Source: Sphingomonas caseinilytica
GTDB lineage: Bacteria; Pseudomonadota; Alphaproteobacteria; Sphingomonadales; Sphingomonadaceae
NCBI RefSeq assembly: GCF_023516455.1
Contig: NZ_JAMGBA010000001.1
Span: 496,001-560,000, forward strand
DNA length: 64,000 nucleotides
Direction of reading: 5' to 3'
Below, piece after piece: positions 1,777 through 12,664 of this stretch. The position numbers were made by a program, and so were the translations under genes. How positions within the stretch are numbered: the stretch's first letter is position 1; each line of letters begins with the position of its first letter. Below the pieces are notes generated by a model. It had not been told where the DNA came from. It saw nothing but the letters and a program-made list of their open reading frames with translations, and ran no database searches.

Positions 1777-2751
1777 ATGAAGAACCGATCCCCTGCCCGC
1801 TCCCTGCCCGTTTACGCTGCAAAATGGTCGCGCCCGTTGATCGCATTGGGGCTTGGGGTAAGCTTGGCTGCCGCCACCAAAGCGCCGCCGCCAACGAGCG
1901 GTGAGAAGAACGCGATCATCGTCCAGGGTGAGAGATTGTCAGAGGGTGCGCTGGAGGAGCGAGCTTCCGAATTCGTTCGGGCGACCGGTGTGGCATCCGG
2001 AAAAGTTCCTGCCGCTCGCTGGATCGACCCGGTATGCGTGCAGGTTCAAGGCCTTGAAGCAGCCGGAAAGCGCGCAGCCGAGGCAAAGATGCGGAGCATT
2101 GCGGCATCGGCCGGCATCGAGGTCGCATCGGAATCGTGCCGCCCGAACATCGTCGTCAACTTCACTGCCGATGGAGCGGGGCTGGCGCAGGAAATCCAAC
2201 GTCGCGACCCCCGCCGCATCGGCCAGCTTACCCCGCGTGCCCGTGACAGCATCCTGACAAGTTCGGCGCCTATCCGTTGGATTTACTCCACGGAATTGCG
2301 CGGACGCGACGGCCAGATAGTGAACGCGGACGGCGGTGCGGGCCAGACTGCGCCCGCCACTCATGACGGCTCCGGTGCCGGATCGGCGCTCGGCGGCGAC
2401 ATGACGATGATGCATTATGAAAACAGCATCGTCAGCACGCTGACGAACCGCATCCTGACGAGCGCGATCGTCATCATCGACACCGACCATGCGATGGGAC
2501 GGAAGCTGGACTCGCTTGCCGCCTATGCGGCGCTCGTGGCGTTCGCGGAAATTCGCAACCCCGATGCGGCACCAGACGGATCGATCCTCGGCATGTTCGC
2601 ATCCAGCACCCCGCCGCGCGGCCTAACACCGCAGGACACGGCCTTCTTGCGTGCGCTTTACCGCATCCCGCTCGACCGTGAGGCGATGCGGCACCGCGGC
2701 CAGCTAGTCCATGAAATCACCCGCGAACTGGCCGCAAACCACGCCCTTTAA
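1777..2751 (+). CDS. Conserved-looking exported protein of unknown function
   Basis: 324 residues from the ATG, which has GAGG five bases upstream; a GTG two codons earlier overlaps that site and is less likely. An N-terminal basic then hydrophobic stretch (RPLIALGLGVSLAAATKA) looks like a signal peptide. The mature part contains RWIDPVCVQVQGL and a second cysteine in ASESCRPNIVVNF, a possible disulfide pair, and then a loop rich in Gly, Ala and Asp near residues 185-210. The C-terminal half has IVIIDTDHAMG and an alpha-helical end. I do not recognise a named domain. It is divergent from the GntR regulator across about 60 bases, so shared control is possible. Confidence 0.6.
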   Translation: MKNRSPARSLPVYAAKWSRPLIALGLGVSLAAATKAPPPTSGEKNAIIVQGERLSEGALEERASEFVRATGVASGKVPAARWIDPVCVQVQGLEAAGKRAAEAKMRSIAASAGIEVASESCRPNIVVNFTADGAGLAQEIQRRDPRRIGQLTPRARDSILTSSAPIRWIYSTELRGRDGQIVNADGGAGQTAPATHDGSGAGSALGGDMTMMHYENSIVSTLTNRILTSAIVIIDTDHAMGRKLDSLAAYAALVAFAEIRNPDAAPDGSILGMFASSTPPRGLTPQDTAFLRALYRIPLDREAMRHRGQLVHEITRELAANHAL

Positions 2752-2783
2752 CGAGTGGCGCGCAATTCCGAGGGCCTGTCCCG

Positions 2784-3836
2784 CTAGTTGCTGACCGCCA
2801 ACTGGTGACGCTTCATGGCGTGGCGTAGCTGATCATAGCTTAGGCCCAAGGCGGTGGCCGTTGTCCGCTGGTTGAAACGATGCTTGGCCAAGGCCTCTTC
2901 CAACAGCGCCTTCTCATACGCATTGACCGCGCCGCGCAAATCATTGGTCGAAGATGGCGACGCGATCGGCGCCGCTACAGCTGGGTCCACTTGAGCAGCA
3001 GACTGCGAATGGGCGCCGTACGCAGCAACCTCGACCGCACCCGCAGGATCGGGACTCAAAATCCAAGGTGAGGCAAACGGGTCGAACTGGATCTCGTCGA
3101 TCGCGCGCTCCGGATCCTCCGCGCGATAGACCGCCCGCTCGATGACGTTCCGAAGCTCGCGGACGTTGCCCGGCCAGCTATAGACTTCGAGCTCCGCCAC
3201 CGCGCGGTCCGAGAATCCTGGCCAGTTGGGCCAGTCTAGCTCCACGGCCATCCGCCGCCCGAAATGCTCGGCAAGTAGTGCGATGTCGCCCTTCCGGGCA
3301 CGAAGCGGCGGCAAAGTCACAACTTCGAAGGAAAGCCGGTCGAGCAGGTCGGCGCGGAATCGTCCCTCCAGAACCAGCTTCGGCAGATGCTCATTGGTCG
3401 CGGCCACAATGCGCACGTCGACCTGGATCGGCTTGGAAGCACCAATGCGCGTCACCTCGCCATATTCCACGGCGCGGAGCAGCCTGTCCTGCGCGGGTGA
3501 GGACAAGGTCGCCAGCTCGTCGAGGAAAAGCGTTCCGCCATCCGCCTCTTCGAAACGCCCGTGACGCGTCTTCGCGGCTCCGGTGAAGCTTCCCGCCTCA
3601 TGGCCGAACAGCTCAGCCTCGATCAGATTCTCCGGCAGTGCCGCGCAGTTCATGGTCACCAGCGGGCCAGCCCAGCGTGACGACAGGTGATGCAGACGTT
3701 CGGCAATCAATTCCTTGCCCGTGCCGCGCTCGCCAATAACAAGCACGGGCCGGTTGAGCGGCGCGGCACGGCTCGCGCGCTCGACAGAGTCGAGAAACGC
3801 CAGGCTTTGCCCCACGAATTGATTGGCCCGTTCCAT
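2784..3836 (-). CDS. pspF: Phage-shock sigma-54 activator PspF
   Basis: 350 residues. It is an AAA+ enhancer-binding protein without an N-terminal receiver, as in PspF. Walker A is GERGTGKE (residues 35-42), the sigma-54 contact loop is GSFTGA (82-87; usually GAFTGA), Walker B is GGTLFLDE (about 99-106), and a Fis-type helix-turn-helix lies at the C-terminus (about 305-345). PspF drives sigma-54 transcription of psp genes and is held inactive by PspA. It is divergent from pspA with a sigma-54 promoter between them, the classic arrangement. The region between AAA+ and HTH (about 255-300) is long and low-complexity. The Ser in the GAFTGA loop deviates from consensus. Confidence 0.93.
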   Translation of the reverse strand: MERANQFVGQSLAFLDSVERASRAAPLNRPVLVIGERGTGKELIAERLHHLSSRWAGPLVTMNCAALPENLIEAELFGHEAGSFTGAAKTRHGRFEEADGGTLFLDELATLSSPAQDRLLRAVEYGEVTRIGASKPIQVDVRIVAATNEHLPKLVLEGRFRADLLDRLSFEVVTLPPLRARKGDIALLAEHFGRRMAVELDWPNWPGFSDRAVAELEVYSWPGNVRELRNVIERAVYRAEDPERAIDEIQFDPFASPWILSPDPAGAVEVAAYGAHSQSAAQVDPAVAAPIASPSSTNDLRGAVNAYEKALLEEALAKHRFNQRTTATALGLSYDQLRHAMKRHQLAVSN

Positions 3837-3864
3837 CCACTAATATGTGGTGTTAAATCCCACC
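3837..3864. promoter_or_regulatory. Interlocked inverted repeats, candidate PspF upstream activating site
   Basis: CCAC-TAATAT-GTGG (3837-3850) and GGTG-N8-CACC (3849-3864) overlap immediately upstream of the pspF start and about 75-100 bases before the sigma-54 promoter of pspA. The position suits an enhancer for PspF. The match to a known PspF site is not strong, so the assignment rests on position and symmetry. Confidence 0.35.
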
Positions 3865-3939
3865 AAGTAGCAAGATATTTCGCACAGTCGTTGGTCGAAA
3901 ATTGGCGGTTTTTGCGGATTTACTGGAGAAGTTAATTTC

Positions 3940-3955
3940 TGGCACAAAGCGTGCA
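3940..3955 (+). promoter_or_regulatory. Sigma-54 promoter of the psp operon
   Basis: TGGCAC, five bases, then GTGCA gives the -24 GG (3941-3942) and -12 GC (3953-3954) doublets ten bases apart, one base off the TGGCAC-N5-TTGCA consensus. Transcription would start near 3966, about 29 bases before the pspA ATG. It lies between pspF and pspA, as expected for a PspF target. Confidence 0.82.
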
Positions 3956-3994
3956 AGAGCATTTGTGATTGGACATTATTATCTGGAGTGCTCG

Positions 3995-4663
3995 ATGGGC
4001 ATTTTTTCCCGGACCCGGGATATTTTCGCAGCCAATATGACAGAGCTGCTGGATCGCGCCGAAGATCCGGCGCGGATGATCCGCATGATCATCCTCGAAA
4101 TGGAAGAGACACTGGTCGAGGTTCGCGCTTCGGCCGCGCGTTCGATCGCCGACAGCAAGGAAATGAAGCGGGCGCTCGTTCGGCTCGACGAGCTGCAGTC
4201 GAGCTGGACCGAGAAGGCCGAACTTGCCCTGTCCAAGGATCGCGACGATCTCGCCAAGGCGGCCCTCATCGAACGCCAGAAAGCGGCGGACATGGCTGAG
4301 GGACTTCGGCTGGAGCTGGGCTCGATCGAGGAAACGCTGAAAGGCTATGAGGCCGATATCGCCAAGCTGCAGGGCAAGCTTCGCGAAGCACGTGCCCGCC
4401 AGAACGCCATCGCCAACCGGATCGAGAGCGCAGTCACCCGCGCCCGAACCAGCGAGATGCTGAACGGCAGCCGCACCGAAGATGCCTTCTCGCGCTTCGA
4501 ACAGCTTGAACGCCGTGCGGACTTCGCCGAAGGCCGCGCGGATGCGTTGGGAATGACCGGGCCGAAGAGCCTGGAAGAGGAAATTGCGGAGCTCAGGGCA
4601 ACCGACAAGGTCGATGCGGAGCTCGAAGCAATGAAGGCAGCAATGAAGGCCAAGGGGGCGTAA
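3995..4663 (+). CDS. pspA: Phage-shock protein A (membrane-repair ESCRT-III-like)
   Basis: 222 residues, the same length as the E. coli protein as I recall it. It begins MGIFSRTRDIF, the amphipathic helix that binds stressed membrane, followed by long coiled coils (DRAEDPARMIRMIILEMEE, later RARQNAIANRIESAVTRAR). PspA inhibits PspF and assembles on damaged inner membrane. The start has GGAG six bases upstream. An in-frame ATG at 3902 is rejected because it precedes the sigma-54 promoter. The stop is directly followed by the GTG of pspB. Confidence 0.95.
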   Translation: MGIFSRTRDIFAANMTELLDRAEDPARMIRMIILEMEETLVEVRASAARSIADSKEMKRALVRLDELQSSWTEKAELALSKDRDDLAKAALIERQKAADMAEGLRLELGSIEETLKGYEADIAKLQGKLREARARQNAIANRIESAVTRARTSEMLNGSRTEDAFSRFEQLERRADFAEGRADALGMTGPKSLEEEIAELRATDKVDAELEAMKAAMKAKGA

Positions 4664-4930
4664 GTGGACGAATTTATTCCGGTAATTGCTATAGTCACGC
4701 TGTTCATTGGCCTGCCGTGGCTGGTTTTTCACTACATCACTCGCTGGAAGACGGCGGCCACGCTGTCCGGATCCGACGAGAAGCTGCTCGATGAATTGCA
4801 CGATGCAGCGCGGCGGCTCGACGATCGGTTGAACACGATCGAGCGGATCATGACCGCCGAGAATCCGAGCTGGCGCCAGCAGAGCCTGCCCGAGCCGGGC
4901 CGCCAACGGCTCCTGTCCGACGGAGAGTAA
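4664..4930 (+). CDS. pspB: Phage-shock protein B
   Basis: 88 residues, starting at a GTG directly after the pspA stop, with AAGGGGG inside the pspA end as ribosome-binding site. One N-terminal span (FIPVIAIVTLFIGLPWLVFHYI) is followed by a cytoplasmic helix with the PspB signature RLNTIERIMTAENPSWRQQ, close to the family's R-x-x-x-L-E-x-I-L-x-x-E-x-P-x-W-R. PspB works with PspC in the inner membrane to relieve PspA inhibition of PspF. It is slightly longer than usual because of a 15-residue C-terminal extension. Confidence 0.9.
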   Translation: MDEFIPVIAIVTLFIGLPWLVFHYITRWKTAATLSGSDEKLLDELHDAARRLDDRLNTIERIMTAENPSWRQQSLPEPGRQRLLSDGE

Positions 4931-4932
4931 CC

Positions 4933-5319
4933 ATGACCCAGCCTCCGAGCAGAACGAGGTTCTATCTCGACAAGCGCAACGGAAAGGTGATGGGCGTTTG
5001 CGCCGGCATCGCCGACTACACGGGTCTCGATGTCACGCTGGTCAGGATCATGTTCGTCAGTGCCGTACTGATGAGCGGATTCAGCGTCCTGCCGCTCTAC
5101 TTCGTCGCCGGGTTCATGGCTGACGATCAGCCGCGCGAACTGGCGCTGGAAGACAAGGAAGAGCAAAGGTTCTGGCAGGGCGTCCGCGCCTCGCCGACGC
5201 GGACCGCCCGCGATATCCGCGGTCGGCTGCGCGATATCGACCGGCGCCTTGCTGACATCGAAAGCTATGTCACGACCGAGAACCGCAGCCTGGCGCGGGA
5301 AATCGAAGACCTGCGCTAA
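4933..5319 (+). CDS. pspC: Phage-shock protein C with a PspB-like tail
   Basis: 128 residues. The N-terminal PspC domain reads RFYLDKRNGKVMGVCAGIADYTGLDVTLVRI, followed by a hydrophobic span (about 38-65). PspC senses membrane stress with PspB and recruits PspA. The last 25 residues (RLADIESYVTTENRSLAREI and so on) match the C-terminal tail of the four small proteins that follow, suggesting the tail is a shared interaction module. The gene starts two bases after the pspB stop, so translation is probably coupled. Confidence 0.9.
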   Translation: MTQPPSRTRFYLDKRNGKVMGVCAGIADYTGLDVTLVRIMFVSAVLMSGFSVLPLYFVAGFMADDQPRELALEDKEEQRFWQGVRASPTRTARDIRGRLRDIDRRLADIESYVTTENRSLAREIEDLR

Positions 5320-5346
5320 ACCACGATCAAGACCAGGGGATGATGA

Positions 5347-5634
5347 ATGAGCTTTGGGGGTCCAGCTTTCGTTCTTGCGCTTGTCGCCATGAGCATGTTG
5401 GCGTGGGTCATCACTACCGCCATCCGCGCCAAACATGGCTATCCGCTAACCGATGACTGGGGGAACACGATGCACCGCCGTGATCCCAATGACGACACCA
5501 CCAAGGAATTGGCGGCCGAAAACGAGCGACTGAAGGCCACTGTCGGCCGGCTCGAGGAGCGGCTGAAGGTACTCGAGCGGATCGCCACCGATCCATCTCG
5601 CCAACTCGCCGATGAAATTGAGAAACTGCGCTAG
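5347..5634 (+). CDS. PspB-like single-span membrane protein, copy 1
   Basis: 95 residues with one N-terminal membrane helix (FVLALVAMSMLAWVITTAI). The motif KHGYPLTDDWGNTMH follows the span, and then a charged coiled coil (KELAAENERLKATVGRLEERLKVLERI) ends in TDPSRQLADEIEKLR. The topology and the R-L-x-x-L-E-x-I core resemble PspB, but the W-R end of PspB is replaced by an extended acidic/leucine tail. The ATG has AGGGGA seven bases upstream. It is closely related to the next protein. The function is unknown; partnership with PspB/PspC is inferred from the operon. Confidence 0.8.
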   Translation: MSFGGPAFVLALVAMSMLAWVITTAIRAKHGYPLTDDWGNTMHRRDPNDDTTKELAAENERLKATVGRLEERLKVLERIATDPSRQLADEIEKLR

Positions 5635-5646
5635 GGGGTTACTTAC

Positions 5647-5991
5647 ATGGATGCTGACAAGGCAATATTGCTGTCCCAATTAACCGACGTGTTTCCGTAC
5701 ATATTGGCCATCACAGCCGTGGCGGTCGGGGGCTGGGTCATCACCACCTGGCTTCGCATCAAGCATGGCTATCCGCTTGAGAACAGCTGGGGCCGCGCGA
5801 TCCATCCGCACACCGACAAGGAATCGCAGGAGCGCATCAAGCTCCTGACCACCGAGAACGCCCAGCTCCGCGCCGAACTTGGCTCAGTCAAGGACCGGCT
5901 GGAAACGATCGAACGCATCGTCACCGACCAGCCGCTTCGCCTCGCCAAGGAGATCGACCAGCTGGCGCTCGATAAAGGAGGGCATGCATGA
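5647..5991 (+). CDS. PspB-like single-span membrane protein, copy 2
   Basis: 114 residues. The membrane helix (about 14-33: ILAITAVAVGGWVITTWL) is followed by IKHGYPLENSWGRAIH, which repeats the W-V-I-T-T...K-H-G-Y-P-L...H pattern of copy 1, so the two are recent paralogs. A coiled coil (LLTTENAQLRAELGSVKDRL) leads to ETIERIVTDQPLRLAKEI. It starts 12 bases after copy 1, with AGGGGG in the gap. Its stop overlaps the next start as ATGA. The function is not known. Confidence 0.8.
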   Translation: MDADKAILLSQLTDVFPYILAITAVAVGGWVITTWLRIKHGYPLENSWGRAIHPHTDKESQERIKLLTTENAQLRAELGSVKDRLETIERIVTDQPLRLAKEIDQLALDKGGHA

Positions 5992-6272
5992 TGGGTCCCG
6001 GCGAAGTGATGATCGCACTGATCGTCATCGGCCTGCCGACGATGATGCTTTTTTACGGTTTCCACCGTTTCTTCCGATTTCGCGAGAAGAAGCTCGAAGC
6101 CGATACTCTCCTGGCCGCCGAAAAGGCCGCGCAATATGCTGCATCGAACGCAGAGCTTGAAGCGCGGGTCAGAGTGCTGGAAAAGATCGTGACGGACGGC
6201 GGACTCGAAACCGCCGCGCAGATCGAGGCGTTGCGCACGCCGCGGCTCGCAAAAGGAGACAAGGTCCAGTGA
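5988..6272 (+). CDS. PspB-like single-span membrane protein, copy 3
   Basis: 94 residues. The start overlaps the previous stop by four bases, with a very strong AAAGGAGGG upstream. The membrane helix is at about 5-26 (EVMIALIVIGLPTMMLFYGF), followed by a basic stretch RFFRFREKK typical of the cytoplasmic flank in PspB. The coiled coil ends in RVRVLEKIVTDGGLETAAQI, the same tail pattern as copies 1 and 2 but without the K-H-G-Y-P-L motif. Its span (IGLPTMMLFYGFHRF) resembles the span of the true PspB here (IGLPWLVFHY), so it may descend from pspB itself. Confidence 0.78.
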   Translation: MMGPGEVMIALIVIGLPTMMLFYGFHRFFRFREKKLEADTLLAAEKAAQYAASNAELEARVRVLEKIVTDGGLETAAQIEALRTPRLAKGDKVQ

Positions 6273-6514
6273 ATCCCTTTGAGATGGTGGCGATCATCGT
6301 GGTCGCAGTGATGATCGCTTCGGTATTGCGTGCAAAATACGGCCATCGCCATCGGGGCGACGGCAATGAGGTTTCCGTACAGGAGCGCGCGGAAACCCGC
6401 CGGCTGCAGGACGAAGTGAAACAGCTCAAGGAACGGATCCACGTCCTCGAACGCATCGCCGTGGAGAAGGAAGACACGCTGTCGCGGCAGATCGAGGAAT
6501 TGCGCGACCGCTGA
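6269..6514 (+). CDS. PspB-like single-span membrane protein, copy 4
   Basis: 81 residues from a GTG that overlaps the stop of copy 3 by four bases, with AAGGAG upstream. A short membrane helix (EMVAIIVVAVMIASVL) is followed by RAKYGHRHRG, a worn version of the K-H-G-Y motif. The coiled coil is RRLQDEVKQLKERI, then HVLERIAVEKEDTLSRQIEE. It is the last gene of the psp-like series, and a GC-rich hairpin follows. All couplings point to a single transcript starting at the sigma-54 promoter. Confidence 0.78.
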   Translation: MNPFEMVAIIVVAVMIASVLRAKYGHRHRGDGNEVSVQERAETRRLQDEVKQLKERIHVLERIAVEKEDTLSRQIEELRDR

Positions 6515-6517
6515 ATT

Positions 6518-6542
6518 CTCCCCTCCCTAGATGGGAGGGGAG
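6518..6542. terminator. GC-rich hairpin ending the psp-like operon
   Basis: CTCCCCTCCC and GGGAGGGGAG form a perfect 10-bp stem around TAGAT, beginning four bases after the last psp-like stop. There is only TT after it, so it is a poor intrinsic terminator. It may attenuate read-through into sufE or protect the 3' end. Confidence 0.5.
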
Positions 6543-6562
6543 TTACGCACTAAGTGGCAGGT

Positions 6563-6982
6563 ATGACCGCCCTCCCCGCCCTTTCCGATATCGCCGATGA
6601 ATATGAATTCCTCGACAGCGAGGATCGTTACCGCTTGCTGATCGAACTTGGCCGGCAGCTGGAACCTATGCCCGACGCTCTGAAGACCGACGCCACAAAA
6701 GTGCGCGGATGTTCTTCGTCGACCTGGGTATATCCCACCCGCCTGCCCGACGGCCGGCTTCATTTCCTTGCCGACAGCAACGCGGCGATCACAAAGGGCG
6801 TCGTGGCCTTGATCCTGTCGGCTGTGCAGGATCGGCATCCGTCAGAAGTCGCTGCGTTGGACATCCGGGAGCTTCTCGAACCGTTCAATCTGACCCGGGA
6901 GCTTTCGTCCAATCGGACCCAGGGCGTTCCCAACATGATTGCGCTCGTCCAGGAAACCGCGGCACGACTGGCGGCAGCATGA
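6563..6982 (+). CDS. sufE: SufE sulfur-acceptor protein
   Basis: 139 residues from the ATG at 6563; an in-frame GTG at 6554 gives three more. The acceptor cysteine is in VRGCSSSTWV (Cys50 from the ATG), preceded by the helical start DIADEYEFLDSEDRYRLLIELG typical of SufE. The protein takes persulfide from the SufS cysteine desulfurase and passes it to the Fe-S scaffold. No suf operon is in the window. The stop overlaps the next start as ATGA, so it is coupled to the thioesterase. Confidence 0.93.
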   Translation: MTALPALSDIADEYEFLDSEDRYRLLIELGRQLEPMPDALKTDATKVRGCSSSTWVYPTRLPDGRLHFLADSNAAITKGVVALILSAVQDRHPSEVAALDIRELLEPFNLTRELSSNRTQGVPNMIALVQETAARLAAA

Positions 6983-7428
6983 GCGACTCCGAGGCCTTCG
7001 ATCCACGGGTCGGCGCGTTCGATCCTGAGCGGTTCTTCGCCATGGCCCGCAATTACGGCCATGGCCGCGCGCTTGGACTTGAGTACAGGCAATCGGCCGA
7101 GGATTGGATCGAACTGGCCCTCCCCTGGCGCGAGGAACTGGTTGGAATTCCGGATCAAGGCATCCTGGCTTCCGGAGCGATCGTCAGCCTGCTCGATACG
7201 TGCGGCGGGGCTTCGGTGTGGATGGCGCTGGGGCACTTCCAGCCGCTCGTCACCATCGACCTCAGGCTCGACTATCTTCGGCCCGCATTGAAAGGTGAAA
7301 CGGTCATTGCCCGGTGCAAATGCTACAAGCTGACGCGCCAGGTCGCGTTCGTTCGCGGACTGGCCCACGGCGAGGACCCCGATAAGCCAATTGCACAGGC
7401 CGCCGGCACCTTCATGCTCAATCCCTAG
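6979..7428 (+). CDS. PaaI-type hotdog-fold thioesterase
   Basis: 149 residues overlapping the sufE stop by four bases. The fold signature is GILASGAIVSLLDTCGGASVWMAL, where the D of the central helix region is the usual catalytic acid of PaaI-like acyl-CoA thioesterases, followed by VTIDLRLDYLRPALKGETV and a strand-rich C-terminus ending AQAAGTFML. The substrate is probably an aryl- or acyl-CoA and cannot be specified. The final codons overlap the opposite-strand J-domain gene by four bases. Confidence 0.85.
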   Translation: MSDSEAFDPRVGAFDPERFFAMARNYGHGRALGLEYRQSAEDWIELALPWREELVGIPDQGILASGAIVSLLDTCGGASVWMALGHFQPLVTIDLRLDYLRPALKGETVIARCKCYKLTRQVAFVRGLAHGEDPDKPIAQAAGTFMLNP

Positions 7429-7964
7429 AGCTTGGCGCCGGTCTTTCGTTCCTCGGCCCGCTTCAACACATCATAAGCGGCCTGGATGGCGTGAAAGCGT
7501 TTGGCCGCCTCCTTTTCGCCCTTGTGGCGATCAGGGTGATGTTCTTTTGCGAGGCGGCGATAGGCCGACTTCACCGCCTTGAAATCGGCATCCGACTCCA
7601 GCTCCAACGTATCCAGCGCGCGCATCTCATCGCGGCTGCGGGTGCCATCTCCCGGCCCGCCCCAGGCGTAGTGGGCACTGCTTCGGAAGGCTGAAGCTCC
7701 GCTCTCCTCTTCCGCTGCACGGCGGGCGGCCTCTTCGGCGGTCAATCCGGCGAAGTAATTCCAGTTCTTGTTGTACTCGGCTGCATGCGTCTCGCAGAAC
7801 ATCCAGCGCTCTGGATTGTTCGGCGCCTTGGGCGCCGGCCGGTCGCCCACTTCGTTACAGCCATCGCGATCGCACAGGCGGACGCGCGCTGCCGCACGGC
7901 CCTTCGCGCCGTAGGCCCGCCAGCGGGGAAATCCCCAATCGTCCGATCGCGTCGGTTTCGCCAT
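7425..7964 (-). CDS. J-domain protein with an N-terminal Cys/His cluster
   Basis: 179 residues. The C-terminal J domain (about 118-175) contains YRRLAKEHHPDRHKG with the essential HPD, so it should stimulate a DnaK-type chaperone. The N-terminal half is not the DnaJ G/F or zinc-finger region. It has LCDRDGCNEVG, then MFCETHAAEYNKNWNYF, a possible C-x4-C...C-x2-H metal site. This two-part layout is seen in alphaproteobacterial DnaJ-like proteins. The client is unknown. It converges on the thioesterase gene with a four-base overlap. Confidence 0.85.
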   Translation of the reverse strand: MAKPTRSDDWGFPRWRAYGAKGRAAARVRLCDRDGCNEVGDRPAPKAPNNPERWMFCETHAAEYNKNWNYFAGLTAEEAARRAAEEESGASAFRSSAHYAWGGPGDGTRSRDEMRALDTLELESDADFKAVKSAYRRLAKEHHPDRHKGEKEAAKRFHAIQAAYDVLKRAEERKTGAKL

Positions 7965-7984
7965 TTCCGTCCTTCATACGAAAT

Positions 7985-8355
7985 GCCAGGGGACCTGTAA
8001 GCCGGGTTCTGTTCACTCCCGAAGGAGATCGGCGACCATTCCTCTAGGACGAAGGTTGCCCTCCGCCTCAAGCGACCAACCCGGGCGACGAGCCGGAACA
8101 GGCCCATATGCCGCCCCTATTCGGTCTTGCACCCGGTGGGGTTTACCGTGCCGCGTCCGTTGCCGGACGCGCGGTGCGCTCTTGCCGCACCCTTTCGACC
8201 TTACCCGCCCAAAGGCAGGCGGTATGCTTTCTGTGGCACTTTCCCTAATTCCCGCCGAAGCGAAAACCGCCGGGCGTTACCCGGCACCGTTGTTCCGTGG
8301 AGCCCGGACTTTCCTCGCCCCGCTTGCGCGAGCCGCGGCCGCCCGGTCCCCTGGC
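7985..8355 (-). ncRNA. rnpB: RNase P RNA component
   Basis: On the minus strand the conserved 5' segment GAGGAAAGTCCGGGCTCC lies at 8316-8299 and the conserved 3' segment ACAGAACCCGGCTTACAGG at 8012-7994. The ends GCCAGGGGACC (8355-8345) and GGTCCCCTGGC (7995-7985) pair perfectly as the P1 helix, which sets both boundaries and a length near 371 nt, normal for bacterial type A. It forms the catalytic RNA that matures tRNA 5' ends. It starts only about 15 bases after the amidase stop, so its promoter lies inside that gene or the two are co-transcribed. Confidence 0.95.
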
Positions 8356-9361: not shown

Positions 9362-12300
9362 ATGCCGACGATTAACGGAACTTCCGGTAATGACACGCTC
9401 GACGGTACGGTAACCGATGACGTCATCAGCGGGCTTGACGGCGATGACATTTTGCGTGGCTTGGGCGGCAATGATCAACTGAACGGCGGTGAGGGCGACG
9501 ACACGCTTGACGGCGGAGCGGGCAATGATGTCCTCGATGGCGGCGCAGGAATCGATACTGCGGACTATTCCAATGGTGCCGGAGAAACCCGGATCGACCT
9601 CAATTGGACCGTACCCCAGAACACCGGCAGTTCCGGCAACGATACACTGATCGGAATCGAAAATGTCATCGGCTCGAACTACGGCGATTTTCTAACAGGT
9701 AATGCGAGCGCCAACGCCCTGTACGGCGGAAATGGCATGGATCGCCTGACCGGCGGCGGAGGAGATGACCTCCTTGATGGCGGACCCGGTATGGACACTC
9801 TGATCGGCGGCACCGGCAATGACATCTACATATCGAATGGTGATGAAGTCGTCGAGAATGCGGACGAAGGTATCGACGAAATTCAAGCTTCCTCGTCCTA
9901 CACCCTACCCGCCAACGTCGAGAACCTCTGGTTGGGCGGGGTTGCGAGCTACGGCGCCGGCAACGAACTCGCGAATGCAATCCAGGGCAACGATCAGTCC
10001 AATCATCTCTTGGGGCTAGGCGGCGATGACATGCTCAGCGGGAGCCTGGGCGACGACACTCTCGATGGCGGCACCGGCAACGACACGATGCTGGGCGGGT
10101 GGGGCAATGATATTTACTACGTCGACACCGCCCTGGACGTCGTTATCGAGTCAGACACGGACAACGGGACCGATACGGTTCGCAGCACCGCCGCAAGTTT
10201 CACCTTACCGGGAAACGTCGAAAATCTCGAGCTGCTGGGCAACTCGTTCCTGACTGGCAGCGGTAATGCCTTGGATAACTTGATCACCGGCAACTCGGGC
10301 AACAATCGGCTTTTCGGAGGGGCAGGCAACGATACGCTATTCGGTAATGATGGTGACGACCTGCTTCACGGAGGCGAAGGCACTGACACGCTGAACGGCG
10401 GTTCAGGAAATGACACGGCAAGCTACAGCAATTCATTTTTGGGAGTCACTGTAAACCTCTCGATTGCCGGGCCGCAGAATGTTCTTTGGGACAATATCGA
10501 CACGCTCGTAAGCATCGAAAGCATAATCGGCTCGATTAGCGGCAATGATACGCTTGTTGGTGATGGCGGATCAAACCGTCTCGATGGCATGGGTGGCAAC
10601 GACACCCTTCGAGGCGGTGAGGGCGATGACTTTCTGAACGGAGGCGCCGGCAACGACACGCTCCTCGGAGAGGGCGGCGACGACGTCATAACTGATAGCG
10701 ACGCTGGAAATGACATCCTGGACGGCGGAGCCGGCAACGATTTCATATCCCTGTATCGCCTTGATTCGAGCCTGAACGAGGCGGTGACGATCCGGGGCGG
10801 AGACGGCAACGACATGATTACCGCCTGGAGCTACGCTTCTGGCAGTGTTGTGATCGATGCGGGAGCCGGCGACGATTCCGTATCACTCGTCACATCGAAC
10901 AATTCGCAACAAATCACGCTCGGGACCGGACGCGATGTCCTCAATCTCGATCTCTTCCAGCCGATTCAGGGGGCGGGGCAGACCAGCCGCATTGTGACCG
11001 ATTTCCAGACCGGTGCGGTCGGCGACAGTGTTTTGATGCACCAGCTGCTGAGTCGCTACGGCGAATGGGACGGCCAATCCAATCCATTCGAAGCCGGCGT
11101 AATCCGGCTCGTCCAGCGTGGGGCAGATGCGGTCCTACAGATGAGCGGAATCGCGGGCGTAAGCGATTTCCAGGACGTCGTCATATTTCAGAACGTCAGC
11201 ACCGGGAGTTTCGTTGCCGAGAATTTTGGGGGGTTCTCACCCAATGGCGTGCCTGCAGCCCCCACCAACCTCACGGGAGATGGCGCCGATAACACGCTCA
11301 ATGGTGGATATGGCGAAGACATCATCAACGGGCTGGGTGGCGATGACACCATCGACGGCTCGACTGGAAACGACATCCTTCGAGGCGGCGACGGGTACGA
11401 TACGATTCGGCCGGGGCAAGGGAACGATGTTGTAGAAGGCGGCGCAGGTAACGATTTCATCGATCTATATCATGATGGCGGCTCGGACTCGGTCGACGCT
11501 GGAACCGGCAACGACTGGATCAGGGTTTATCGGACGTTTCGCGACGTCTCTGAAGACCTCACCATCATTGCGGGCGATGGCGACGATCAACTTACCTACC
11601 AGAATTTCGATCGCGGAACGCTGACTGCCTCCCTTGGCAGCGGAGCAGATCTCTTCATCATCCTTGGCGCTCGCCAGGACATCAAGCTGACGCTGGGCGC
11701 GAACGCCGACATCATTGATCTATCCCAAAACGACCCCACGCTCATTGGCGAAATGCTGATCACAATTGCCGACTATGTTCCCGGTGAAGATCATATCGAG
11801 TGGGGCTATTATCTACAGAACCAGCTGATCGGATGGGATGGTCAATCAAATCCATTCACCTCGGGATACCTGCAGCTTGAGCAGCAGGCTGGAAAGGTTG
11901 TGCTCTCCATCGACCGCGATGGATCCAGCGACAGCACTTACGCCGCCGCCCCGTTCCTCGTCCTTGAGAATGTCTCCCTGAGCTCGCTTTCGTCGGCGGA
12001 CTTCGCAGGCCATTCGCCTGCCAGCGACGCCCGCAACGACTTCAACGGCGATGGGCGCAGCGATATTTTGTGGCGCAACGACAATGGGCAGATGACCAAC
12101 TGGCTGGGCGAGGCCGATGGCGGCTTTGCCTACAACGATGCCAATGCCGCCAACGTCATCGCTACCGACTGGCGCATTGCCGGGGTTGGCGACTTCAACG
12201 GTGACGGCCGCGACGACATTTTGTGGCGCCGGGACAATGGGCAGATGACCAACTGGCTGGGCGAGGCCGATGGCGGCTTTGCCTACAACGATGCCAACGC

Positions 12301-12664
12301 CGCCAACGTCATCGCCACCGACTGGCACATTGCCGGGGTTGGCGACTTCAACGGCGACGGCCGCGACGACATATTGTGGCGCCGGGACAATGGGCAGATG
12401 ACCAACTGGCTGGGCGAGGCCGATGGCGGCTTTGCCTACAACGATGCCAATGCCGCCAACGTCATCGCTACCGACTGGCGCATTGCCGGGGTTGGCGACT
12501 TCAACGGCGACGGCCGCGACGACATATTGTGGCGCCGGGACAATGGGCAGATGACCAACTGGCTGGGTGAGGCCGATGGCGGCTTTGCCTACAACGATGC
12601 CAATGCCGCCAACGTCATCGCCACCGACTGGCACGTACAGCCATCCGAAATCCTGTGGATGTGA
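9362..12664 (+). CDS. RTX calcium-binding protein with C-terminal FG-GAP/VCBS repeats
   Basis: 1100 residues. Clusters of GGxGxDxL nonapeptides (for example [20 protein letters not shown] near residues 40-60, and again near 120-145, 220-245, 320-350, 405-445 and 640-690) form calcium-filled beta-rolls of the hemolysin type. Between them lie domains with N-V-E-N-L-x-L-x-G. From residue 893 there are four 51-residue FG-GAP/VCBS units, D-F-N-G-D-G-R-x-D-I-L-W. There is no Sec signal peptide, as expected for type I secretion, but no ABC exporter is nearby, and the C-terminus (QPSEILWM) is not a classic RTX secretion tail. It is likely a secreted or surface adhesin-like protein; an enzymatic domain is not evident. 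Confidence 0.88.
12038..12637 (+). repeat. Four near-identical 153-bp tandem repeats inside the RTX gene
   Basis: Units start at 12038, 12191, 12344 and 12497, each beginning GACTTCAACGG, and the last is truncated after about 141 bases. Base differences between copies are few and mostly silent, and units 1 and 3 or 2 and 4 share small variants such as WRI versus WHI. This points to recent duplication or ongoing gene conversion, and the copy number may vary among strains. Confidence 0.93.

Follow-up and report, generated by a model that had tools for sequence, protein, structure and literature searches.

What are the four small genes that stand directly behind pspA, pspB and pspC in Sphingomonas caseinilytica (contig NZ_JAMGBA010000001.1, of which we analysed a stretch of 64,000 nucleotides, here called the window), and what might they contribute to the Psp system? 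Psp is among the classic responses to membrane stress, and to our knowledge it is not settled by which route PspB and PspC detect stress and pass on PspA. The safest statement about the four genes, which we call D, E, F and G, is that they belong to a wider family of single-span proteins, PspB-like in general and PspC-like at their end, of which sphingomonads possess a branch that is conserved, linked to psp and multiplied. On this basis the reading we prefer, at a rough probability of 0.45, is that D-G form a single-span inner-membrane coiled-coil family distinct from PspB, whose members would act as extra membrane docking modules for PspA.

All four open reading frames (ORFs) encode one N-terminal hydrophobic span and a tail of the form R-h-x-x-[LI]-E-[RK]-I, which confirms the description, in a first-pass annotation of the window, of small single-span coiled-coil genes with a common tail after pspABC. 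The predicted layout of each protein is that of PspB, with a short outer N-terminus, one span and a cytoplasmic helix; according to hydropathy and charge counts, basic residues are more numerous after the span than before it in every group, as in PspB, the exception among the groups counted being one 48-residue D-type frame without a span (locus L119). The predicted model of E comprises little beyond two helices (residues 3-40 and 58-111; mean predicted local distance difference test score 74.6, predicted template modelling score 0.31), and among solved structures only weak matches were found, to prefoldin and coiled-coil chains. With PspB (PF06667, TIGR02976) they share the short outer N-terminus, the single span, the cytoplasmic coiled coil, the R-h-x-x-h-E-[RS]-I motif, the position in the psp operon and, in the case of G and F, profile similarity, but they score below the curated cut-offs, lack the P-x-W-R end, fall in a separate clade, possess an extra C-terminal stretch and occur as several genes per operon. 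With PspC (PF04024, TIGR02978) they share the C-terminal tail, which keeps register without gaps as far as the final L or LR, but they exhibit a single span and no PspC domain.

The relation to PspB, which the first-pass annotation had assumed, is upheld by hidden Markov models as a distant likeness and not as membership, since no cut-off of a PspB model (25.6 bits for PF06667, 51.7 bits for TIGR02976) is passed. G comes closest, with 28.3 bits on TIGR02976 (1.6e-6) and 21.7 bits on PF06667 (2.2e-4), followed by F (13.6 bits on PF06667) and D (11.9 bits on TIGR02976), all under the cut-off, while E matches neither model and PF06667 is matched by just one of 16 D/E relatives (6.9e-4). For the D and E proteins of the window the best Psp match is the PspC model, at 0.0032 and 6.8e-4 and likewise under the cut-off; the PspC domain PF04024 has no match in any of the four. 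No Pfam or NCBIfam model is reached above its cut-off, in agreement with the earlier characterization of the genes as poorly described, and the current annotation of these families is "hypothetical protein".

Profile-profile comparison unites D/E and G (3e-21) as well as G and F (1e-14), and relates each of them to PspB (G 1.4e-7, D/E 1.8e-7, F 2e-8), although only F matches PspB through the span, over 69 columns. The corresponding values for PspC are 3e-7 (D/E), 2e-5 (G) and 8e-5 (F), with 5e-4 between PspB and PspC themselves. Among 20 PspB proteins of other families, whose operons lack these genes, the G, F and D/E profiles match 18, 13 and 8, respectively (E<0.01), and they match none of 980 background frames, nor PspA. 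By these comparisons the D-G family is PspB-like overall. The idea that the tail was simply inherited from PspC was dropped, as the D-G profiles match PspB more strongly than PspC, and for this reason we retain a narrower claim, which concerns only the end of the tail. A tree of 150 proteins places PspB on one side of a branch supported at 100/100 and all the extra genes, including a fifth small gene, x3, that is found in many relatives, on the other; E (98/96) and x3 (100/100) are single clades there, unlike D, F and G. A second tree, of 93 proteins, includes stand-alone genes from other families (see below); here PspB (100/100), G (96/92) and x3 (100/99) form single clades, whereas E, F, D and the stand-alone set do not, and the stand-alone genes lie near F. 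Both trees were built from few columns with a midpoint root, and their bootstrap had not settled, so that we regard just the PspB split and the x3 clade as firm. The possibility that D-G are recent duplicates of PspB was rejected, as PspB and the extra genes are separate clades in both trees.

For the end of the tail we defined a register, numbered from the motif glutamate, in which position +14 is hydrophobic and position +17 is L, and counted it on distinct ends. It is present in 104/104 E, 117/120 F, 53/73 D and 63/114 G ends, in 12/12 stand-alone relatives of other families, and in 117/118 and 20/20 PspC ends (137/138), but in 0/105 and 0/19 ends of PspB (0/124); shuffled versions of the D, E, F and G sets and of the family PspC set give 0.9-2.7 hits. 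A stricter motif anchor catches 80 of 119 family PspC rows, and 66 of the 67 distinct ends among these fit the register. Conversely, W or F at +10, which belongs to the P-x-W-R end, is found in 103/105 and 19/19 PspB ends and in none of the D, E, F or G ends; in the window PspB does run on to P-S-W-R after the tail motif, as had been claimed. In those G proteins of other genera that were inspected, two or three extra residues displace the register. Judged from the aligned ends, the tail end of D-G follows the spacing of PspC and never that of PspB, in nearly all E and F proteins and in part of the D and G proteins, and the earlier view of PspB as the parent version of the tail is not borne out, given the separate clade and the 137/138 against 0/124 count. 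The PspC end is of functional interest: in Yersinia a change of PspC V125 abolishes the PspC-PspA interaction, and V105D at the corresponding position of E. coli PspC abolishes PspC-dependent signalling (PMC6003685), while the interaction of E. coli PspC with PspA requires its C-terminal part and its leucine zipper (PMC3068692). The latter paper placed this C-terminal part in the periplasm and discusses two topologies. At the position of V105, the proteins of the window exhibit V in PspC, E and F, A in D and G, and M in PspB.

Several natural rearrangements suggest that this tail could be a detachable module. In G089, a genome rated 100% complete, PF06667 has no match at all, and the sole PF04024 protein is an 88-residue PspC without a tail, whose stop lies eight bases before the next gene and which is followed by two single-span proteins with full tails. 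In three genomes of another family of the order (f8; the third is G148), a second, tail-less PspC is followed by a single-span tail protein. In G005 the PspC terminates like an E protein and the locus has no E gene, but this is a 77% complete draft and the fusion may be an assembly error. In the Novosphingobium loci L110 and L119 no pspB stands between pspA and pspC, as judged from the locus only, and the F, E and G types are kept. A related arrangement is known from the literature: a divergent PspB domain fused to PspC in ANW39986.1 (Ravi et al. 2024, PMC11237479) fits a motif common to PspB, PspC and D-G, although there the module is a part of PspC, whereas in D-G it is carried by separate membrane proteins.

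The extra genes are a nearly constant companion of psp among sphingomonads. Sixty relatives were drawn, of which 36 are congeners, and in these 37 psp loci were read: D-G-type genes follow pspC in 36/36 congeners, 35 of the 37 loci are complete and contain two to six such genes, and the other two are cut by a contig end with one gene visible in each. G is the last gene in 33 of the 35 complete loci, while L044 and L051 end in an apparently frameshifted G; x3 was not found in the loci of the window's genus that were read. Two adjacent F genes of one locus (L031, 3272-3811) correspond to a single gene in its near relative (L067, 3326-3599); this gene begins like the first of them and finishes like the second, an in-frame fusion between paralogues. 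Among 296 sampled genomes of the order (213 of the window's family and 83 of others), the D/E profile matches 268, among them 211/213 of the family; in 188 family genomes the match, at 1.1e-15 or better, is stronger than any outside the family, and of the 23 weaker ones 18 contain an F-type match at 2.1e-9 or better. The family tally is thus 206/213 clear, five weak and two without a match (G291 and G294).

A scan of named genomes yielded at least 477 confirmed relatives, of which the best 80 loci were used and are therefore selected for D/E likeness. Seventy-three of these 80 are named as sphingomonads and seven only as "Alphaproteobacteria" or "Proteobacteria"; they span at least four families (Sphingomonadaceae, Sphingopyxidaceae, Sphingobiaceae and Sphingosinicellaceae), and pspA and pspC are present in 79. 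The usual row is pspABC-D-E-F-G-(x3)-sufE: for the 68 loci that reach sufE, the gene counts are E 68, F 66, G 63, D 53 and x3 54, and the commonest order, D-E-F-G-x3, occurs in 28. In one Novosphingobium locus (L110, sp. ST904; 5587-8124) G and sufE are separated by about 2.5 kb, far more than in the other loci read. The ratio of nonsynonymous to synonymous substitution rates (dN/dS) of D-G against three relatives ranges from 0.03 to 0.29 in nine comparisons (a tenth gave no estimate), compared with 0.06-0.14 for PspB and PspC, in both cases with dS near saturation, and selection on D-G is purifying. The operon thus proved conserved across sphingomonads (36/36 congeners, 206/213 family genomes), and these counts, together with dN/dS and a tail spacing far above shuffles, mark the genes as more than chance. 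Spread on mobile elements was considered and rejected: E matches one of 72,556 plasmid records, a large replicon with ordinary chromosomal genes, F matches none of the plasmid records, and E none of the phage records. One record labelled as a plasmid (L089, NZ_CP155749.1, "plasmid unnamed1" of S. parapaucimobilis, 880 kb) contains ftsY, mtaB, psp and sufE-like genes of chromosomal look; it might represent a second chromosome or a piece with a wrong label.

Outside the window's family the picture is different. After pspC no D-G match is found in 17 of 19 psp loci; in the other two (L078 and L086, family f8) a tail-less second PspC and then one tail protein follow psp. Nevertheless 57 of the 83 sampled genomes of other families exhibit a D/E-profile match, at 1.4e-14 or weaker, and of the 12 genomes opened two of family f8 possess one copy at psp and one elsewhere, and one of f8 (with a cut contig) a copy at psp. 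The idea that these weaker matches are PspB or PspC was rejected; they are related genes, mostly outside psp. Twelve proteins of the stand-alone type gave good matches to the profiles of G, F and D/E, and weak or no matches to those of PspB or PspC; of six scanned against Pfam and NCBIfam none passes a cut-off. In two f8 loci (L232, 4896-5168; L239, 5005-5277) the stand-alone relative directly follows rpoD. In a sample of the class 10/385 genomes matched, namely the window's own, four of its family and five weak ones, a search that used the D/E profile only and probably undercounts distant relatives; one of the five weak matches is genuine (G502, see below), and the other four are unrelated coiled coils. 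Such related genes outside psp point to recruitment rather than to duplication of PspB.

How the proteins might work can be outlined as follows. The family, which in other families of the order is found as a single gene away from psp, would have been drawn into the psp operon and multiplied in sphingomonads. PspF and sigma-54 would transcribe all seven genes together, and D-G would assemble with PspB, PspC and each other via span and coiled coil. The tail of PspC, in enterobacteria the part of PspC that contacts PspA (PMC6003685, PMC3068692), has the same end register as E, F and roughly half to three quarters of the G and D proteins, and the tails of D-G would add or vary membrane docking sites for PspA; docking would free PspF and hold PspA at the damaged membrane. 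The juxtamembrane segments, KHGYPL..WG in D/E and AEKAAQYA in F, would tune the exposure of each tail. We take PspA docking added by D-G to the PspBC complex to be the likeliest way of working. In a bolder version, a small order-wide single-span family entered the psp operon of sphingomonads and diversified, the tail with which PspC holds PspA turned into a detachable module on a heteromeric membrane platform, and PspC and PspB can lose control of PspA entirely to these proteins, as G089 might illustrate; this version seems to us doubtful.

Docking has to be weighed against other roles, and a number of observations speak against it. The PspC profile, as compared, scores equal to PspB for D/E and weaker for G and F, and the G, F and D/E profiles match PspC of other families in only 1, 0 and 0 of 23 cases (E<0.01). 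None of the ends of x3 fits the PspC-type register (0/62), and at the position of E. coli V105 (+3) V is found in few D (10/73) and G (9/114) ends and, in PspC itself, in only 61/118 and 5/20. PspC retains its own tail in nearly all genomes, and G294 keeps pspF, pspABC and x3 but no D-G at the locus. In nine of the 12 opened genomes of other families the match is a single gene of about 73-86 amino acids far from psp, whose neighbours are not constant (among 18 scanned, rpoD in two, a GAF protein in two, the rest unrelated). G502, of another order, contains two relatives, the better one at 2e-19 on the G profile, and no homologue of PspA, PspB or PspC was found within the 17 kb read around them. 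On account of these relatives outside psp in other families and in G502, a Psp role is not general by position, and because the other-family matches turned out to be related genes mostly outside psp, we lowered our estimate of docking and raised that of a general membrane scaffold or effector, which in sphingomonads would have been put under PspF control and would not touch PspA. The absence of D-G at the G294 locus, the varied juxtamembrane motifs and the two to six genes per complete operon of the genus would suit such a scaffold as well, but it leaves the PspC register of the end and the tail-less PspC beside separate tails without an explanation, and relatives co-occur with Psp even when unlinked: PspB is present in 57/57 other-family genomes with a match, as compared with 10/18 of the listed genomes without one (eight more are unlisted), counts that ignore relatedness and include mostly unopened match sites. 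Within the window's family, 12 of the 15 genomes without PspB are without a D/E-type match, and all 12 lack PspA (some are incomplete), while in two others (G734 and G741), where D-G-type genes are present, the contig ends before pspB. We regard the scaffold as rather improbable.

It is only a little easier to believe, and still unlikely in our view, that D-G are PspB-type subunits of heteromeric PspB/PspC sensor complexes, which set the threshold or input of the stress response and do not hold PspA. The stronger profile likeness to PspB than to PspC, the alignment of F through the span, the Novosphingobium loci without pspB between pspA and pspC, and the PspB-less G089, all with F/E/G types remaining, agree with this proposal. 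It is at odds with ends that lack P-x-W-R and follow PspC, and because PspB is present in 214/229 genomes of the family, the extra genes are usually no substitute for it. That they are redundant copies kept by chance is disfavoured and very improbable: their number and order vary, neighbours have fused, and the last genes of two loci look frameshifted, but the low dN/dS, the clear matches in nearly the whole family and the recurrent order D-E-F-G-x3 are hard to reconcile with chance. Docking of PspA remains the reading we favour.

Extra PspB-like genes in psp operons are of a kind already known, because a single clause of Ravi et al. (2024, PMC11237479) refers to "PspB duplicates" in such operons; the passages concerned give no families, tail, copy number or distribution. 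In the open-licence literature we found nothing on these genes beyond that remark, and neither the families nor the common end, the near-universal presence in sphingomonads, the stand-alone relatives or the split-PspC variants. The present analysis defines families hidden among hypothetical proteins and points to a conserved set of unnamed partners in the psp operon of a large, environmentally important bacterial group. Genomes in which PspC is already split are ready-made variants for asking which piece senses and which binds PspA, and the question arises whether several docking proteins might let the cell distinguish membrane stresses.

The operon itself is well defined (Table 1). PspA, PspB, PspC and PspF are each above the NCBIfam equivalog cut-off, and the PspFABC layout is complete with a sigma-54 site, with pspF divergent in 75/75 loci that have room for it (81 loci including L089). 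The genes are tightly packed, with 27 bases between pspC and D, 12 between D and E, and four-base overlaps at E/F and F/G, so the tight gene row behind a sigma-54 site, noted in the first-pass annotation, is found as described. PF06667 has a single match in the genome, pspB, and all four places matched there by the D/E profile lie within the psp operon; PF04024 has three more matches outside psp (C2:434602, C1:1206591 and C1:425287).

Table 1. Features of the psp locus (positions in the window) and, in the last row, of a related locus from another order
Feature	Position	Strand	Remark
pspF	2784..3836	-	divergent sigma-54 activator; TIGR02974 E=6.5e-146, above cut-off
sigma-54 promoter-like site TGGCACAAAGCGTGCA	3940..3955	+	exact pattern match; 55 to 40 bases before pspA
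pspA	3995..4663	+	TIGR02977 258 bits, cut-off 243
pspB	4664..4930	+	PF06667 89 bits, cut-off 25.6
pspC	4933..5319	+	TIGR02978 129.9 bits, cut-off 104
PspC C-terminal tail RLADIESYVTTENRSLAREIEDLR	5245..5316	+	ungapped alignment to E. coli PspC end, including V105
gene D, 95 amino acids	5347..5634	+	accessory, single span, KHGYPL..WG juxtamembrane motif
D tail RLKVLERIATDPSRQLADEIEKLR	5560..5631	+	tail alignment
gene E, 114 amino acids	5647..5991	+	accessory, single span, KHGYPL..WG juxtamembrane motif
E tail	5896..5988	+	tail alignment
gene F, 94 amino acids	5988..6272	+	accessory, single span, AEKAAQYA segment before tail
F tail	6165..6269	+	tail alignment
gene G, 81 amino acids	6269..6514	+	accessory, single span, closest to PspB; last gene of row
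G tail	6434..6511	+	tail alignment
perfect 10-pair hairpin, candidate transcript end	6518..6542	+	directly after last stop codon; without T run
G502 relatives	L241 8227-8709	-	two adjacent small single-span genes related to G

The sigma-54 site is the only exact pattern match in the window, although with one mismatch allowed two are found as compared with 7.6 expected, i.e. without enrichment; an RpoN gene is present in the genome. Five named relatives (L090, L094, L098, L100 and L127) have a site of the same kind at -51 to -55, and among 79 loci a score of 10/11 within 250 bases is reached in five and of 9 in four, where shuffles expect 0.1 and 1.0; in most of the other loci no site was found within that distance, and the site is convincing only near the window's genus. 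A sigma-70 pattern scan of 2700-7500 gave no match, and an RNA-family scan of 2000-8000 none at gathering score. The hairpin behind G has a folding energy of -22.6 kcal/mol (z -4.3), equalled by 0 of 200 shuffles.

Two neighbouring features deserve mention. In the f8 loci L078 (3878-4430) and L086 (3800-4367) the psp operon with the split PspC is followed by a conserved gene, which we presume from its HVAR...GTEGC motif may be an L,D-transpeptidase. In the window, at 9362-12664, an ORF of 1100 amino acids contains many GGxGxD-like repeats and, near its C-terminus, near-identical repeats of about 50 residues, and is presumably a secreted calcium-binding repeat protein.

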